From a virus, in the IMG/VR virus record IMGVR_UViG_3300046660_000438, positions 1 through 25,625 of that record: DNA of 25,625 nt; one strand, 5' to 3'. The notes beneath the pieces were generated by a model, which was given only the letters and a program-made list of their open reading frames with translations, made no database searches and had not been told where the DNA came from. Below, piece after piece: positions 2,622-20,949 of this stretch; within the stretch, counting starts at the first letter, position 1; every line of letters begins with the position of its first letter. Position numbers and translations under genes: made by a program.

Positions 2622-2748
2622 GAGACAAGCGTAGCCGCGGGCACCCACAGGCCACCCAGTCGAGCAGCGGCCTGCCCCGAGCCCTCACATGGAAAAGGTC
2701 CCGCCCCATACCCTGACAGTGACGAGCTGTTCAGAGAGGGGCGAGACC

Positions 2749-3999
2749 GTGCCTACAGATGCTACCCCCGACCCGTACGCCGACCCGCTGAAGTTCGGCC
2801 AGCGGGTGCAGATCCTCCGCGAGCGCCGCGGCATGACTCGAGTGCAACTTGCCGGCCTCGTCGGCGTCTCACCGCACACCCTGAAAAAAGTCGAGAACGG
2901 GCAGCAGCAGGCCCCGGGGCTCGAGATGGTGATGCGGATCGCCGAAGCGTTGCGGGTGCGTGATCTCGCCGACCTCACCGGCCTCCCCGAGGCGCATGTC
3001 GATCTGTTCATCGGCCCCGGGCATCCGCGTCTTGCCGCGGTGAAAGCGGCGATCGACTCCTTCCCTCTCACCTCGAGCATCGAGGCGCCGCCTGTCGCGC
3101 ACCTTCAGGCCCGTCTCGACCGGGCATGGACGGCCCGCCACGAGGCGCCCAACCACCGCGAGGTCATCGGGAAACTACTGCCGGACCTGATCCGTGACGC
3201 GCAGGCCCTCGTGCGGCAGGCGGACTCCGCGCTCGAGCGACGTATGGCGCAGGGGCTCCTCGCGCAGTCGTACTCCCTGTCGCAGTTCTTCATCGCCTAC
3301 CAACCAGACTCGAGCCTGCTGTGGCGCGTCGCCGAACGCGGGATGATCGCCGCGCAGGAGAGCGAGGACCCGCACACCATCGGCGTCGCCGCCTGGCTCA
3401 TGGCCCAAGCCCACCGCGACTCAGGCCCGCGCCACTTCGATGCGGCCGACGCGGTGAATCTCGAGGCGGTCCGCTTCCTCGAGCCGCTCCTGCCCGACGC
3501 GAGCGATGACGTCCTCGCCATCGCGGGCGCCCTCGAGTTCGAGCTCGGCTACACCGCGGCCCGTCGGCGGGAGACCGGGACGGCGTGGGGGTGGTGGGAC
3601 AAGGCGGAGAAGACAGCGAAGAAGCTGCCCAGTGACTACTACCACCCGGTGACGTCGTTCTCGCGGGCCATCATGGGCGCGCACGCGGTCACGGTGGCCG
3701 TCGAGCTGCACCAGGGCGGCGAGTCGGTGCGGCAGGCTGCTCGAGCGGACACGATGACGATCAAGTCCCGGCCGAGGCGGGCCCGGCACCGGATCGAAGA
3801 GGCGCGCGCGTACCAGCTGGACGGGCAACCGGAGGTGGCGATCGCGACGCTGGCCAAGGCCTACGAGGCAGCGTCGGAAACGATCAAGTACAACGGGTAC
3901 GCCAGGCGGATCATCCTCGAGGAAGCCGAGTCGAAGCAGGCCGACCGTCGACGGCGCGCGTCGGAGCTGGCGGTGGAGATCGGCATTCTGGCTGCGTAG
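2749..3999 (+). CDS. XRE-family regulator with long helical (TPR-like) C-terminal domain
   Basis: I chose the GTG at 2749, 20 codons inside the longest frame, because GAGAGGGG precedes it and the extra N-terminus is not domain-like. Residues about 16-70 form an XRE helix-turn-helix (FGQRVQILRERRGMTRVQLA, GVSPHTLKKVENG). The remaining 340 residues are almost all amphipathic helices in repeated pairs, resembling TPR arrays. Many actinobacterial regulators have this architecture, and it is also that of the peptide-sensing RRNPP group. It stands apart from the lysis genes and is followed after 91 nt by three coupled mini-genes, which it may regulate. It is probably an accessory (moron-type) regulator expressed in the lysogen; this is inference from position. 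No signal-peptide gene was found beside it. Confidence 0.8.
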   Translation: MPTDATPDPYADPLKFGQRVQILRERRGMTRVQLAGLVGVSPHTLKKVENGQQQAPGLEMVMRIAEALRVRDLADLTGLPEAHVDLFIGPGHPRLAAVKAAIDSFPLTSSIEAPPVAHLQARLDRAWTARHEAPNHREVIGKLLPDLIRDAQALVRQADSALERRMAQGLLAQSYSLSQFFIAYQPDSSLLWRVAERGMIAAQESEDPHTIGVAAWLMAQAHRDSGPRHFDAADAVNLEAVRFLEPLLPDASDDVLAIAGALEFELGYTAARRRETGTAWGWWDKAEKTAKKLPSDYYHPVTSFSRAIMGAHAVTVAVELHQGGESVRQAARADTMTIKSRPRRARHRIEEARAYQLDGQPEVAIATLAKAYEAASETIKYNGYARRIILEEAESKQADRRRRASELAVEIGILAA

Positions 4000-4004
4000 G
4001 GAGG

Positions 4005-4021
4005 GGACCGGATTCCGGTCC
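4005..4021. repeat. 17-bp palindrome downstream of the XRE-TPR gene
   Basis: GGACCGGA and TCCGGTCC flank a single T, giving a near-perfect 17-bp palindrome just after the stop codon. The tiny loop makes it a better protein-binding site than a terminator. It matches the reverse complement of the iteron unit at 19700-19716 at 14 of 17 positions. That could be chance, since both are GC-rich palindromes. Confidence 0.4.
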
Positions 4022-10559: not shown

Positions 10560-10960
10560 TGAACCACTCCTCAAAGCCCGGCCTCTCATTCAGCCTCGGC
10601 GCCAACCACCTCCACGGCGTCCTCCGCGTCGACCAGATCCGCACCGATGACCTCGTGCAGCTCGTCGCCGGATGGGGTGACGAGGACACCCGCGCCGACG
10701 TGATCGCCGCGCTCGACGAGCTGGCCGCAGTCGTCACCGGGGTGGCCCGCGAGGGCGAGTTGGACGCGGCGATCGAGCAGGTCGAGGACGTCGCGTCGAT
10801 GGACACCGCGCAGGTCGAGGTCCGGATGTCGGATGTCCGTCGTCTGCTGGCCGAACTGTCCGAGGTGGCTCGGGTGTTGTTCCGGTTCGGGTCGAAGGGC
10901 CCGTCGGTGCACCTCGCGAAGAGCCCGCTTCCGGAGCAGTCGGATCGGCGGTCGGCATGA
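10559..10960 (+). CDS. Hypothetical protein (133 aa)
   Basis: The start is at the TGATG overlap with the previous gene; the open frame upstream is a shadow of that gene. The N-terminus has a beta-like repeat (LSFSLGANHLHGVLRV); the rest is helical with a conspicuous acidic pattern (DEDTRADVIAALDELAAVVTG, VRRLLAELSEVARVL). No Cys cluster or membrane helix. It overlaps the next start by ATGA, so its stoichiometry is tied to the neighbours. Function unknown. Confidence 0.65.
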   Translation: MNHSSKPGLSFSLGANHLHGVLRVDQIRTDDLVQLVAGWGDEDTRADVIAALDELAAVVTGVAREGELDAAIEQVEDVASMDTAQVEVRMSDVRRLLAELSEVARVLFRFGSKGPSVHLAKSPLPEQSDRRSA

Positions 10961-15545: not shown

Positions 15546-16174
15546 CCACCGCGCCTACCCTCTTCGACACCACCACCCCGGCCCTCCCGGCACCGCCCGT
15601 GCTCGAGACCCGGCCCCTCGTCGTCGGCCTCGACATCGCCCTCATCACCTCCGGCGTGGCCGGCCCCGGATGGGCCGACCACTTCCGCACCGGCGACCGC
15701 CGCGGGGAACAGCGCCTCACCCACATCGTCGAGACCGCAGCCACCTTCTACCGCAACGCCGACTTCGTCCTCATCGAGGGCGCCGCCTACTCCATGGCCA
15801 AGCAGGTCGGCCACGACGAGATGTCCGCCGCCCGATGGATGATCCGCTGCGACCTCTGGTGCCGCGGTATCCCCTTCGCCGTCGTCACCCCCGACTCGCG
15901 CACCATCTACGCCACGGGGCGCGCCCGCTGGAAGGACGAGGAGGGGAGGAAGCTCACCCCGAAGCAGGTCAAGGGCAAGGTCCGTGACGAGGCGTCCCTC
16001 CGCTACCAGCAGGACTTCAGTGGTACGGCCCGCTACGACGAGGCCGACGCCTACGTACTGATGGCGATGGGCATGGACTGGCTCGGCTACCCGCTGGCCG
16101 AGGTCCCGGAGACCCACTCCCGGGCGCTGAAGGGCGTGGCCTGGCCGACGACCACCGTGGCGGTGGCGCGATGA
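15542..16174 (+). CDS. RuvC-like Holliday junction resolvase
   Basis: The 210-aa product has an RNase H-like nuclease fold. The four acidic residues expected for RuvC can be placed: Asp31 in VVGLDIAL, Glu79 in FVLIEG, and Asp166 and Asp169 in RYDEADAYVLMAMG. A basic region lies between (ARWKDEEGRKLTPKQVKGK, about 128-146). Such phage resolvases cut four-way junctions made by recombination or replication before packaging. This fits the YqaJ/ERF/exonuclease genes before it. The first 20 residues are Thr/Pro-rich and likely disordered. The GTG start overlaps the previous stop, and the end overlaps the methyltransferase start. Confidence 0.82.
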   Translation: MTTAPTLFDTTTPALPAPPVLETRPLVVGLDIALITSGVAGPGWADHFRTGDRRGEQRLTHIVETAATFYRNADFVLIEGAAYSMAKQVGHDEMSAARWMIRCDLWCRGIPFAVVTPDSRTIYATGRARWKDEEGRKLTPKQVKGKVRDEASLRYQQDFSGTARYDEADAYVLMAMGMDWLGYPLAEVPETHSRALKGVAWPTTTVAVAR

Positions 16175-17880
16175 TCAAGAAGATTCGGACCGCCACGCAC
16201 AGGCCGGCCGTCAGGCGCCGACGCTTCCGCCACGACGAATACGTCGCCGTCGACCTCTTCAGCGGCTTCGGCGGGCTCACCAAGGGCATCGAGGACGCCG
16301 GATTCACCACGATCATGGCCGCGAACCACAACGAGTACAAAGTCCAGGTCCACGAGCGGAATCACCCCGACGCCGAGCACTGGATTGCCGACCTGGTCGA
16401 CCCTGACGCCGCCGACTACCACTCCGCCCGCGACCTTCCCTCGGCTGACCTCTTGGCCGCAGGAGTGAGCTGCGTCAACCACTCACTCGCCAACACGATC
16501 AAGGCGTACGAGCAGGGCCAGTCCCTGTTCGAGCTGGAGGACCCCGACTACGAGGCGCGCGTCACCAGGTCCGAGCGGGACCGAGCGACCGCGAACTGCG
16601 TCCTGCAGTACGCCGCCAAGCACCACCCGCGACTCATCCTCGTCGAGTGCACCACCCAGCTCACCTCATGGGGGCCCGCGGTCCAGGGCAAGGCCAAGGT
16701 CGGGGACGGCAGCACCTACCGGTGGTGGCTCAACCAGTTCGATCTGCTCGGCTACCGGCACAAGGTCCTGTACCTCAACAGCCAGTTCTTCGGGGTCCCG
16801 CAGTCCCGGGACCGCGGCTACTGGGTGTTCGTCGACAAGTCCCTGCCGATGCCCGACCTGGAGCACCGGCCCGTGTCGCACTGCGGGCGCTGCGACAAGG
16901 ACGTCGAGGCGGTGTGGACGTGGAAGACCGGCATCACTCCGACCGGCACGGTGATGTACGGCAAGCAGTACGAGTACCGGTGCCCGTCCTGCCGCCGCCC
17001 CGTCGTCCCGCCGATGACGCCGTCGCTGGCCGCGCTCGACCTCACCGATCTCGGCAGGCGCATCGGCGACAAGCCGGTCAAGACGTTCAAGGACGGCTTC
17101 GTCGGGCCGCTCGCGCGGTCGTCGATGGCGCGAGCGGAACGGTGCCGCCGCCGCTTCGCCGACTTCCCGGCGATCCTCATGCCGGCGAAGGGCGTGCACG
17201 GCTCGGAGCGGCTCCTGCTGCAGCCGATGGCGACGCAGACCAGCCAGCAGGAGACCGCGATCCTGTCGACCGGGCCGGTCGTCCAGCCGCTGTGGGCCCA
17301 GGACGCCGCTGACGGACTGGCCGCACCGGCGATGGCGCTCGCGGTGGACAACTTCCAGGGTGCCGCGCGCGGCGCCGGGGAGCCGCTGCCCACCCAGGTC
17401 GGGTCGGAGACCCTCGCCGTGCTGTCCTCCGGTGTCATCCCGTACCGGAAGAACACGCTGCCCACGCTGCACAGCGAGGCGATGCCCACCTTCACCTCGG
17501 AGCAGATCCCGGCGGTGCTGACGGCCGCCGGCTGGTACAAGCAGAACGGCCCCAGTGGGAACGAGACCGCGCCTCACCCGGTCACGGACCCGCTCGGCAC
17601 TCTCACCTCACGTGACACGACCGCGCTGCTCATGGCCCAGTGGCAGGCGTCGCTCGCCGAACTGCCGCTTGAGGACTGCTTCTACCGGATGATGGCGGCG
17701 CACGAGATCGGCCGTGGCTGCGGCTTCGACGTCGACTTCAACGACTACCGCGGCTCCTTCACCGTCTGGGGCTCCGCCCGTGACCAGGTCGACGGGTTCG
17801 GCAACGCAGTCTCCCCGAAGGTCGGTACCTGGATCGGGGCCCGGCTGCGGGCCGTCCTCCACGGGACGGTGGCGGCATGA
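16171..17880 (+). CDS. Cytosine-C5 DNA methyltransferase family, non-canonical motifs IV and VI
   Basis: The fold is that of C5 methyltransferases. Motif I is DLFSGFGGL (28-36), motif VIII is QSRDR (211-215) and motif X is GFGNAVSP (about 542-549). Motif IV reads GVSCVNHS with Cys101 as the nucleophile candidate, where classical enzymes have a Pro-Cys dipeptide. Motif VI reads VEC (Glu159) instead of ENV. A zinc ribbon (Cys238, 241, 271, 274) is inserted at the start of the long target-recognition region (about 225-520). At 569 aa it is longer than a typical Dcm. I recall similar variants with Cys followed by T/V-N-H-S in other actinophages. It has no restriction partner nearby, so it likely protects or modifies phage DNA. 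Whether it makes plain 5-methylcytosine is uncertain. Confidence 0.85.
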   Translation: MIKKIRTATHRPAVRRRRFRHDEYVAVDLFSGFGGLTKGIEDAGFTTIMAANHNEYKVQVHERNHPDAEHWIADLVDPDAADYHSARDLPSADLLAAGVSCVNHSLANTIKAYEQGQSLFELEDPDYEARVTRSERDRATANCVLQYAAKHHPRLILVECTTQLTSWGPAVQGKAKVGDGSTYRWWLNQFDLLGYRHKVLYLNSQFFGVPQSRDRGYWVFVDKSLPMPDLEHRPVSHCGRCDKDVEAVWTWKTGITPTGTVMYGKQYEYRCPSCRRPVVPPMTPSLAALDLTDLGRRIGDKPVKTFKDGFVGPLARSSMARAERCRRRFADFPAILMPAKGVHGSERLLLQPMATQTSQQETAILSTGPVVQPLWAQDAADGLAAPAMALAVDNFQGAARGAGEPLPTQVGSETLAVLSSGVIPYRKNTLPTLHSEAMPTFTSEQIPAVLTAAGWYKQNGPSGNETAPHPVTDPLGTLTSRDTTALLMAQWQASLAELPLEDCFYRMMAAHEIGRGCGFDVDFNDYRGSFTVWGSARDQVDGFGNAVSPKVGTWIGARLRAVLHGTVAA

Positions 17881-18983: not shown

Positions 18984-19009
18984 CCCGGGGCAGAGAGGAG
19001 GAGACGGTG

Positions 19010-19249
19010 TCAGGACTCGGCGATGTTCCGCGCGGCGTTGATGTCGCGGCTCAGCTTCGGGGCCGGCGCAATCCGCGCGACCCACTCGCGCGTCATGCCA
19101 GACCAGCGCGCCATGTCCGACGGACCGACACCCTCGGCGCGCCACTGCACGAACAGCTCGCGCAGCTCTCCGTCGGCGCGCTTGAAGGCCTCCTCGGCCC
19201 GTGCGCGCTTCTTCGCAACGGCCCTGATCTGAGTCTCGGCATCGGTCAT
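19010..19249 (-). CDS. Small helix-turn-helix protein, divergent from the replication genes (79 aa)
   Basis: The ATG at 19247-19249 is one choice; an ATG at 19256-19258 adds three residues. Neither has a good ribosome binding site, so the mRNA may have little leader. The product has a long basic-acidic helix (VAKKRARAEEAFKRADGELR), then a compact helix-turn-helix-like segment (GPSDMARWSGMTREWVARI). It is the only minus-strand gene in the right half of the window, and it faces the replication initiator across about 165 bp with short repeats. It may repress the replication genes; this is inferred from the layout. Confidence 0.68.
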   Translation of the reverse strand: MTDAETQIRAVAKKRARAEEAFKRADGELRELFVQWRAEGVGPSDMARWSGMTREWVARIAPAPKLSRDINAARNIAES

Positions 19250-19258
19250 ACGGGCCAT

Positions 19259-19414
19259 GTTGCCATGCGCGGTCACAGTTCCGCTACGCGATCGCGGTAT
19301 GCGGTCGCGAATGGCGTATGCGAACGGTATTCTCATTGCAGGGTAGATCGAAAGCCGCCCTGAACTGGGGGTTCCTTCGACATGCCCTGATCAGCACAAC
19401 CGAGAGAAGGACCG
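19259..19414. promoter_or_regulatory. Divergent control region of the replication genes
   Basis: No gene fits in this interval. It holds GCGATCGC (19289-19296), GGTATGCG (19297-19304), CGTATGCG (19316-19323) and GGTATTC (19327-19333), forming a cluster of similar short words about 19 bp apart. TATTCT at 19329-19334 is a possible -10 for the plus strand, but no good -35 was found. The small HTH protein encoded to the left is the obvious candidate ligand. Confidence 0.45.
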
Positions 19415-20215
19415 TTGAGCCTCGACGCGCAGGACTGGGTCTGGAACCACTCCCAGGCCAAGAGCACCGCCCGCCTGGTGCTGCTCGCCATCGCCGATAA
19501 GGCGTCCGGCGCCGACTGCTCTGCGTACGCGGGCACCACCATGCTCATCCAGCGCGCCAACGCCGCACGGTCCTCCGTCATCGTCGCCGTCGACCGCCTC
19601 GTCGAGTCCGGCGAACTCGGCATCGTCGAAGGCGTCACCGGCCCCCGCGGCGAGACCCGCTACACCCTCCCCAAAGCCGTCGGTCACCGCCGCGAAGGGG
19701 GTCCGAAATCCGGACCCCCTCGGAATTCGGACCGGTCCGAAAACCGGACCCCCCGGGGTACGGAATCCGGACCCCCCCGGTCCGAAAACCGGACCCCTAC
19801 CGGTCCGAAATCCGGACCCCATAACGCAGTTAACGCAGAGACAACAGAAGGAACGCAGAAGAGAGAGCCGCGCACCGCACACAACACCAGCGCACCGCAG
19901 CCACAGAGGCCCCGGCCTGACGGCCGCCTCCCCCTCGACGAAGCCGACTTCCGCATCACCGACACCATGCGCCGCTGGGCAGGCGCCACCTTCCCCAGCC
20001 TCGACATCGAGCACGAGACCCAGCAGTTCATCAGCCACCACCGCGCCGAGGGCAGCCGCCGCCACTCCTGGCCCGACGAATGGCAAAAGTGGATTCGCCG
20101 CTCCGCGAAGTACGCGTCCGAGCGCGCCGCACGACCATCGCTCCGCTCCGTGTCCGGCGACTGGCAGCCCTACACCAACCCCACCGACCACTCCGTCTAC
20201 GAGAACGGATTCTGA
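19415..20215 (+). CDS. Replication-initiator-like HTH protein (lambda O analogue)
   Basis: A TTG start at 19415 follows GAGAGAAGGA. Residues 1-95 form a winged-helix region of the helix-turn-helix_36 type (DWVWNHSQAKSTARLVLLAI, TTMLIQRANAARSSVIVAVD, ESGELGIVEG). Residues 95-145 are a low-complexity linker repeating S-G-P-P and S-E-N-R-T-P, encoded by an array of palindromic DNA repeats. The C-terminal 90 residues contain a compact domain (TDTMRRWAGATFPSLDIEHE, HSWPDEWQKWIRR) of the kind that contacts a helicase loader. A DnaC-like gene follows at once. Initiator gene with internal iterons plus loader is the lambda O-P plan; the role is inferred from this. Confidence 0.75.
   Translation: MSLDAQDWVWNHSQAKSTARLVLLAIADKASGADCSAYAGTTMLIQRANAARSSVIVAVDRLVESGELGIVEGVTGPRGETRYTLPKAVGHRREGGPKSGPPRNSDRSENRTPRGTESGPPRSENRTPTGPKSGPHNAVNAETTEGTQKREPRTAHNTSAPQPQRPRPDGRLPLDEADFRITDTMRRWAGATFPSLDIEHETQQFISHHRAEGSRRHSWPDEWQKWIRRSAKYASERAARPSLRSVSGDWQPYTNPTDHSVYENGF
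19697..19821. repeat. Iteron array inside the initiator gene, putative replication origin
   Basis: A 17-bp near-palindrome, GGTCCGAAATCCGGACC, recurs at 19700-19716 and 19802-19818. Its variant GGTCCGAAAACCGGACC occurs at 19734-19750 and 19779-19795, and GGTACGGAATCCGGACC at 19757-19773. A degenerate unit lies at 19717-19733 (11 of 17). The last four units start 22-23 bp apart, about two helical turns. Three AACGCAG words in a purine-rich stretch (19823, 19832, 19852) follow and may unwind more easily. Iterons within the initiator gene next to an easily melted stretch are typical of lambdoid origins. Confidence 0.72.
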
Positions 20216-20217
20216 CC

Positions 20218-20949
20218 ATGACCGAACCCGAGAACCTCACAGAACACCGCCCCTCCGCACTCGCCAACCTCATGGCCGGAATCGCCGAGCGCCACCCGCA
20301 GATCCAGGCCGGCCCCGTCGAAGACGAACCCACCCCCGACGAGCCCGGCCACCCCGAATACCACCGCGCCCGCCGCGCCGAATGGGCCCTCGGCCGCTGG
20401 ACCACAGCCACACCGCCCCGCTACCGCCAAGCCACCACCACCCACCCCGACATCCAGCAGTGGGCCGACAACGTCGGCACCAACCCCGAGACCGCCGGAT
20501 CCCTCCTCCTCACCGGAACCACCGGCACCGGCAAAACCCACCAGGCATACGGCGCCCTCCGACGCATCGCCGAAGCCGGACCCCACCGCTACGAGATCAT
20601 CGCGACCACGGCCGCCGACATGTACGGACTGCTCCGCCCCAAAGGATCCGAGCGCGGAACAGAAGCCGAACTCGAACGACTCGCCCGCATCCCGCTGCTC
20701 CTCCTGGACGACCTCGGCTCCGCGAAGTCCAGCGAATGGACCGAGGAGGTCACCTACCGGCTCATCAACGAGCGGTACAACGCCTGCCTCCCGTCGATCT
20801 ACACCAGCAACCTCCCCGCCACATCGCCCGACGGCCGAGACATCACCAGCGCCCTCGGCGAACGCATCGCGTCTCGCCTCTCCCAGGACACCCACGTTGT
20901 CGCGATGGCCGGCCCCGACCTCCGCCGCGGACTCAGGAGCGTCTCGTGA
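20218..20949 (+). CDS. DnaC/IstB-like AAA+ helicase loader
   Basis: The 243-aa product has an AAA+ ATPase core: Walker A GTTGTGKT at 100-107, Walker B LLLLDDLGS at 160-168, and a TSNLP sensor-like segment at 196-200. Arg220 in GERIASRL is a plausible arginine finger. The first 75 residues are Pro/Glu-rich and could bind the helicase or the initiator. No transposase is nearby, so a helicase-loading role fits better than an IstB transposition role. It starts 2 nt after the initiator stop and overlaps the next gene (GTGA). The host helicase is presumably loaded, since no phage helicase is seen in the window. Confidence 0.85.
   Translation: MTEPENLTEHRPSALANLMAGIAERHPQIQAGPVEDEPTPDEPGHPEYHRARRAEWALGRWTTATPPRYRQATTTHPDIQQWADNVGTNPETAGSLLLTGTTGTGKTHQAYGALRRIAEAGPHRYEIIATTAADMYGLLRPKGSERGTEAELERLARIPLLLLDDLGSAKSSEWTEEVTYRLINERYNACLPSIYTSNLPATSPDGRDITSALGERIASRLSQDTHVVAMAGPDLRRGLRSVS

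Follow-up and report, generated by a model that had tools for sequence, protein, structure and literature searches.

The window analysed here, a virus record of 25,625 bases, carries a row of near-palindromic 17-bp sites (iterons) within a gene for a predicted replication initiator. We consider, with a probability of roughly 0.87, that a temperate Streptomyces-type phage uses this array as its replication origin and that the array is recognised by the product of the gene in which it lies. As judged from sequence, the best reading is an origin of the phage lambda kind built on a different winged-helix family, with replication probably starting from the array. In related genes it is the DNA of the repeats that is conserved; the bases of the sites differ from gene to gene with the dyad symmetry preserved, and they vary in step with the recognition helix encoded by the same gene.

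The six sites, five clear and one decayed, span positions 19700–19818 (Table 1), and the near-palindromes that the initial annotation had placed inside an initiator-like gene are thus located exactly. The sequence is GGTCCG-N5-CGGACC at 19700, 19734, 19779, and 19802 and GGTACG-N5-CGGACC at 19757; the position of the decayed second iteron is a counted array copy in relatives such as L014, L020, and L050. The spacings are, in order, 17, 17, 23, 22, and 23 nt, and the period of mostly 22–23 bp described earlier holds for the last three but not for the first two. The array starts 285 nt into the gene, and its sites lie at 0.42 of the gene length. All three codon frames are used across the six sites, the third by the decayed copy alone and the other two by the five clear copies. 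Because of this the sites are encoded as different peptides (GPKSGP, PPRNSDR, RSENRTP, and GTESGPP), and not as the single repeated linker motif proposed at first. The array score is 64, compared with 20 ± 10 (maximum 53) in protein-preserving codon shuffles, none of 100 reaching the observed value. A search with the pattern at up to two mismatches returned 11 matches in the window (shuffled sequence, 7.3 ± 3.0, with 13 of 100 shuffles reaching 11). The five with zero or one mismatch all lie within the array, and the remaining six all have two mismatches. A lone palindrome, GGACCGGATTCCGGTCC, is found at 4005–4021, just past the stop of the gene at 2689–3999; two-mismatch matches are at chance level in the window.

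Viral contigs, bacterial genomes, and annotated phages were sampled for initiator genes, one search contributing the best 80 of 90 loci and another the loci for 30 of 63 matches. The sample comprised 103 distinct genes including that of the window and, with a further 40, a set of 143. Each was passed through a finder that looks for near-palindromes in clusters, and its score was compared with those of 100 codon shuffles that keep the protein. For 122 of the 143 genes, including that of the window, no shuffle reaches the array score. At least four clustered sites are present in 115 genes (window included), 112 of which have no shuffle reaching the score. As controls, 21 other genes of at least 600 nt from Streptomyces phage SV1 and nine genes picked from the window were used; one of these 30 has no shuffle reaching the score, four have at most 5, and three contain at least four clustered words, each with all copies in a single frame. 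In an earlier shuffle test that did not require clustering, none of 60 shuffles equalled or exceeded the observed score in 62 of 103 genes, a lower yield that is probably due to G+C-rich codon runs raising the null, as in SV1-like genes.

One alternative is that the repeats matter only as code for a low-complexity protein linker, with no function at the DNA level. Ser, Gly, Pro, Glu, Asn, Arg, and Thr are abundant in this linker, and clustered same-frame words do occur in the three control genes. However, the copies in the window fall in all three frames, and more than one codon frame is used in 110 of the 115 arrays, compared with none of the three control genes with clustered words. The spacings in 77 arrays show no bias to multiples of three (102 of 369). 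The comparison of 16 clade genes, including that of the window, points the same way. For the array, the binding domain, and the C-terminal domain, respectively, synonymous differences at same-residue codons amount to 0.14, 0.37, and 0.30, the fractions of fourfold-degenerate sites that differ are 0.15, 0.47, and 0.41, and amino acid identities are 0.67, 0.74, and 0.28, the residues of the linker varying more than those of the binding domain. Synonymous change in the array is about one-third of that in the DNA-binding domain, and the repeats are therefore kept as DNA and not as protein. The pattern that the initial annotation had named as speaking against its proposal, linker residues kept while the repeats are lost through synonymous change, was looked for in these 16 genes and the opposite was found, with the repeats conserved and the linker residues varying as it had anticipated. 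The frame and synonymous tests refute the linker-only explanation, for which the remaining probability is negligible.

The 20.9-kb linear plasmid phiDSM40276 of Streptomyces nigrescens, which may be a phage-plasmid, has the same kind of array (L223, 2501–3301; spacings 17, 17, 22, 23, and 22). The primosomal protein gene of Burkholderia phage Bcep176 (L009, 3318–3434) has repeats of a different word at 17- and 22-nt spacing in three frames. In gene 40 of Arthrobacter phage KellEzio, a distant relative, the same finder detected no array.

The dyad symmetry was examined in 182 distinct iterons from 68 arrays. Arm pairs 1–6 are complementary in 79–92% of cases, and as many as four kinds of base pair occur at one position; the percentages are inflated by the demand of the finder for partial palindromes. 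None of 1000 shuffles reaches any of these values. Pairs 7 and 8 are near expectation (54 versus 52% and 48 versus 43%). Arms that keep their pairing, together with an array RNA that folds much better than shuffles (z −5.3), would also be compatible with a row of mRNA hairpins controlling expression of the initiator or the loader. This possibility is very improbable, as A·C mismatches between the arms (62) outnumber G·T wobbles (26) more than 2-fold, the reverse of what is expected from RNA pairing, and the array has no Rfam match at the gathering threshold. Neither would hairpins account for a recognition-helix residue that predicts a base.

Such a residue is found in the DNA-binding domain. 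The repeat words vary among relatives (GGTCCG, GGGCCG, GGCCCG, GGGTCA, GGTACG, GGTCGG, and others), and iteron distance follows the distance between binding domains (r 0.56; partial 0.46 given the C-terminal domain) and does not track that between C-terminal domains (partial −0.04). For base 3 of the half-site a single column, residue 56, stands out (z 13.1; next 6.1), with no column as clear for the other half-site bases. Residue 56 matches base 3 in 67 of 68 arrays: Ile, Val, Leu, or Thr occurs with T (28 of 28), Arg with a purine (30 of 31, the exception being L008), and Gln, His, or Glu with C (all nine, L042 being a tie with T). The rule was fixed in writing before further genes were fetched. 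The 40 new genes yielded 33 arrays, seven genes being dropped (six with fewer than four clustered sites and one with a weak dyad), and the fixed rule gave the right base in 32 of them, missing L159, compared with 18 each when the nearest relative or the commonest class was used as predictor. Many new genes are close kin; counted as distinct helices, 73 of 75 agree with the rule overall. Mapped on the tree, the base shows 13 changes of class and the residue 12; over the whole tree there are 9, 9, and 5 independent switches for the three classes. Natural pairs differing at residue 56 include L026 and L193 (domains 84% identical; Gln and Val, respectively) and L061 and L063 (79% identical; Val and Arg). 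The covariation strongly supports binding of the array by the product of its own gene. Since each gene holds a binding domain together with its own sites, every sequenced relative may be a ready-made protein–target pair.

Two further predictors were set aside. A rule for base 4 from residue 53 was right in 19 of 32 cases and wrong in 13 (10 with Thr-53 and 3 with Ser-53), one more gene having no rule, and was rejected as a general rule, although the pairings of Arg-53 with G (3 of 3) and Asn-53 with T (2 of 2) held. Residue 89 predicted base 3 in 32 of 33 new arrays, yet in 42 of 68 of the first set, and was not taken.

The stretch 3' of the sites is richer in A+T and purines (Table 1), and the three AACGCAG words reported there by the initial annotation were confirmed. 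Successive AAC words begin at intervals of 9, 11, and 9 nt. For 76 of 77 arrays, A+T content is higher in the 60 nt that follow than in the remainder of the gene (mean 0.40 versus 0.29). Synonymous shuffles give 0.336 ± 0.003 where 0.404 is observed in 76 genes, and 0.354 ± 0.005 where 0.419 is observed in 32 new genes. Repeated 6-mers, often AAC words 9–11 nt apart, are likewise in excess, with 360 pairs compared with 134 ± 16 after shuffling in the 76 genes and 136 compared with 42 ± 9 in the 32 new ones. AAC occupies seven slots preset from the first gene set 37 times in the new genes (22.6 ± 2.5 in shuffles), several new genes having none. According to an excerpt of PMC4081077, plasmid Rep proteins recognise words repeated along a single strand of an element of this type, and by analogy the AAC words of the window may be read as single-stranded DNA. 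In the proposed mechanism, dimers of the N-terminal winged helix would bind the 17-bp sites, and the initiator complex would strain the A+T-richer, AAC-phased stretch and hold one strand open. The C-terminal domain, the proposed contact to the loader, would then deliver the helicase by way of this loader, the product of the neighbouring gene. Variation is tolerated in the linker that joins the two domains, which allows the same bases to serve as binding sites and as code.

The next gene encodes the DnaC-like loader expected from the initial annotation, with a match to phrog_50 (Table 1). Ten next-gene proteins of relatives were scanned, of which that of L013 is DnaC-like and those of L078 and L103 are DnaB-like. 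Genes of the phrog_8924 family adjoin the initiator in L004 (3904–4632), L012 (3828–4355), L017 (3819–4634), L020 (3346–3993), and L021 (3346–4056); the phrog_8924 protein may be a helicase loader without a Walker A motif. In phage SoJo the gene adjoining the initiator is annotated "helicase loader." In the 16 clade genes, similar binding domains and arrays are combined with three C-terminal domains that look dissimilar on visual inspection of the alignment. L018 shares the C-terminal domain of the window and has a distant winged helix (HTH_36, a helix-turn-helix (HTH) family) and another repeat, mostly at 22–23-nt spacing. We lean toward viewing these initiator genes as self-contained specificity cassettes, in which residue 56 sets base 3 and paired single changes shift specificity, the C-terminal domain and helicase partner are exchanged independently, and the phased 9–11-nt AAC words form a second element read as a single strand.

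Binding of the array by the winged helix of its own gene, as supported by the residue 56 covariation, would look the same if the array were an autoregulatory operator, at which the protein blocks transcription of its gene while replication starts elsewhere. We regard this as unlikely, because the array lies 285 nt inside the gene, with no pattern match at up to two mismatches between position 10,835 and the array, and because an operator leaves unexplained the A+T-richer repeated stretch and the adjoining loader or helicase genes. Furthermore, where lambdoid phages show this layout the origin lies at that site, as stated in the available part of PMC7466680.

Several observations weigh against the origin reading. 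Eleven of the 143 genes have an array score that more than 5 of 100 shuffles attain. The residue 56 rule is broken by L008 and L159, and L160, one of the dropped genes with three clustered sites only, has a word of the same kind as L159 and is probably another miss. Well-supported branches alone give three independent switches for each class, too few for a formal test. Five of the next genes (L012, L020, L021, L004, and L017) are best matched by phrog_8924, a family of unknown function. Two more have no recognised loader match, one (L035) weakly matching phrog_8924 and kindred families and the other having one marginal match. Of the 74 arrays followed by at least 800 nt of sequence after the gene, just 17 have a Walker A motif in the next 1 kb. 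In the window, A+T makes up just 43% of the stretch that follows the sites. The GC skew of the related phage SV1 shows no turn at the initiator, which is uninformative either way.

The initiator protein of the window matches the PHROG replication-initiation profiles phrog_6643 (E 5.4e-35), phrog_1032 (E 1.4e-17), and the O-like phrog_391 (E 2.3e-11). Its AlphaFold model (mean predicted local distance difference test (pLDDT) score 77, predicted template modelling (pTM) score 0.45) consists of a confident winged helix at residues 1–90 (pLDDT >90), a low-confidence linker at residues ~100–180, which is the part encoded by the array, and helices at the C terminus. The DnaT match (PF17948, residues 198–233) has an E value of 0.035, below the cut-off, and HTH_36 (PF13730) scores 14.5 bits, under the Pfam cut-off of 25; among 54 relatives, 32 match HTH_36 at E ≤0.1, with a best value of 6.3e-13. 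In Pfam searches PF04492 was absent at E ≤0.01 and at E ≤0.1, and RepA_N (PF06970) was not matched at E ≤0.1. A search of solved structures by sequence gave nothing convincing (best E 0.023), and Foldseek gave no match at E ≤0.001. A structure search (VIA) with residues 1–92 found generic winged helices. Among them, 4pt7_B (Z 7.3, root mean square deviation 7.4, 88 aligned) and 4pql_B (Z 7.3, root mean square deviation 6.9, 93 aligned) are tied with many others. These two entries are plasmid RepA domains, the fold compared being that of the N-terminal domain of pSK41 RepA. The entry 4PT7 is named in the accessible text of PMC7145576 on RepA_N initiators. By sequence the initiator matches 11 phage records, one of Burkholderia phage Bcep176 and ten of Streptomyces phages (SV1, Picard, Mojorita, ToastyFinz, SoJo, Tubberson, and Eklok, three with two records each), in which the annotations include "DNA binding protein," "replication initiation protein," and "RepA-like replication initiator."

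Table 1. Positions of the initiator gene, its array, and associated features in the window
Feature	Position	Strand	Details
Initiator gene	19415..20215	+	TTG start, 266 aa; N-terminal winged helix, linker, C-terminal helical domain; PHROG profiles, AlphaFold model
DNA-binding domain, residues 1-92	19415..19690	+	model H2-12 H18-29 E36-39 H41-48 H52-65 E69-75 E81-84
Recognition helix, codons 52-65	19568..19609	+	helix in AlphaFold model
Residue 56 (Ile) codon of recognition helix	19580-19582	+	tracks half-site base 3
Iteron 1, GGTCCGAAATCCGGACC	19700..19716	.	codon offset 0
Iteron 2, decayed, CCCTCGGAATTCGGACC	19717..19733	.	codon offset 2; abuts both neighbours
Iteron 3, GGTCCGAAAACCGGACC	19734..19750	.	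codon offset 1
Iteron 4, GGTACGGAATCCGGACC	19757..19773	.	codon offset 0
Iteron 5, GGTCCGAAAACCGGACC	19779..19795	.	codon offset 1
Iteron 6, GGTCCGAAATCCGGACC	19802..19818	.	codon offset 0
A+T- and purine-richer stretch, candidate unwinding element	19819..19878	+	A+T 0.43 vs window 0.31; purine 0.67 vs 0.49
Phased AAC words	19823..19858	+	AACGCAG at 19823, 19832, 19852; variant AACAGAA at 19843
C-terminal helical domain, residues 183-239	19961..20131	+	AlphaFold model; weak DnaT match (PF17948), residues 198-233
DnaC/IstB-like helicase loader, Walker A GTTGTGKT	20218..20949	+	phrog_50 E 3.6e-32; Pfam IstB E 7e-12

The parallel with lambda ori within gene O, drawn in the initial annotation, stands for the layout and fails for homology of the initiator by Pfam. 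In the same finder lambda O shows four near-palindromic sites at 0.42 of the gene, in three frames and with spacings of 20, 24, and 23 (about two helical turns), and 0 of 100 shuffles reach its score. As in lambda, the iterons of the window lie between the parts coding for the two domains of the initiator and have an A+T-rich stretch beside them, a modest one in the window (0.43), and a replication gene follows, P next to O in lambda and the loader gene directly downstream here. The lambda and Stx phage origins are placed in the middle of gene O, and the A+T-rich stretch of lambda beside its sites, in excerpts of PMC7466680 and PMC6022878. In contrast, PF04492 is present in lambda O (E 5.7e-36) and absent from the window initiator, the lambda loader is P whereas that of the window is DnaC-like, and the window has six 17-bp sites, the first three abutting. 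A profile comparison of the window initiator with the single lambda O sequence gave no match. Although phrog_391 is matched by both proteins, the matches involve opposite halves (residues 140–292 of lambda O and 1–180 of the window protein), and this profile is therefore no evidence for a shared binding domain. By analogy the element would function in the manner of lambda ori, its initiator not matching the Pfam family of lambda O.

The staphylococcal RepA_N initiators of pSK41 and the chimaeric pPR9 Rep are similar in having central sites whose sequence encodes the linker that connects an N-terminal winged helix with the C-terminal domain. The part of PMC5703833 at hand describes the Rep boxes of pSK41 as central in rep and encoding the linker, with an in-frame linker deletion tolerated in a rescue test, and pPR9 as differing from pSK41 in N-terminal domain and origin together, its N-terminal domain being of the phage-like pfam13730 type. 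RepA_N iterons are mostly semi-palindromic according to a portion of PMC7145576. Unlike the present system, pSK41 is a plasmid and not a phage, and its C-terminal domain contacts the DnaG primase in the same excerpt of PMC5703833; the window protein also lacks the RepA_N match. The RepA-like initiators of Streptomyces phages SV1, Picard, SoJo, and Eklok belong to the same protein family and carry arrays of this kind; the record stretches examined annotate neither an origin nor repeats. Six of the seven genome matches of the SV1 motif (at most one mismatch) lie within gp38, but SV1 differs from the window in its spacings (36, 30, 24, 46, and 23) and in its neighbour gene, which is of phrog_8924. 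The mycobacteriophage RepA replicons, as presented in sections of PMC7157519, have a RepA with a predicted helix-turn-helix that is necessary and sufficient for extrachromosomal replication and an origin suggested to lie upstream of or within repA, like lambda. They differ in that no repeated motifs are reported there between the tail genes and parS-L, and in that replication was shown by experiment.

The arrangement is thus already known; the initiator family, the array geometry, and the residue–base rule were apparently not met in the literature, where none of the titles and abstract openings among the matches listed concerned this origin or such a code. The results extend the lambda arrangement to actinobacterial phages whose initiators are of a different family, and they provide origin candidates for phages such as SV1 and Picard. 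With site and reader in one gene, the evolution of initiator specificity becomes a counting exercise over databases, and the base-contact rule is open to a binding assay. Origin–initiator pairs of different specificity would be useful for compatible Streptomyces vectors.

A scan for sigma-70-type promoters over 19000–20300 gave no match, other promoter types being outside the scan. Just upstream of the initiator gene, two 17-nt direct repeats (19287–19322; 76% alike, 19 nt apart) lie at the start of the divergent HTH gene at 19010–19336 (minus strand) and are a possible operator. A C5 DNA methyltransferase gene is located at 16171–17880, and as the iteron arms contain GGWCC and CCGG, methylation of the origin is conceivable.
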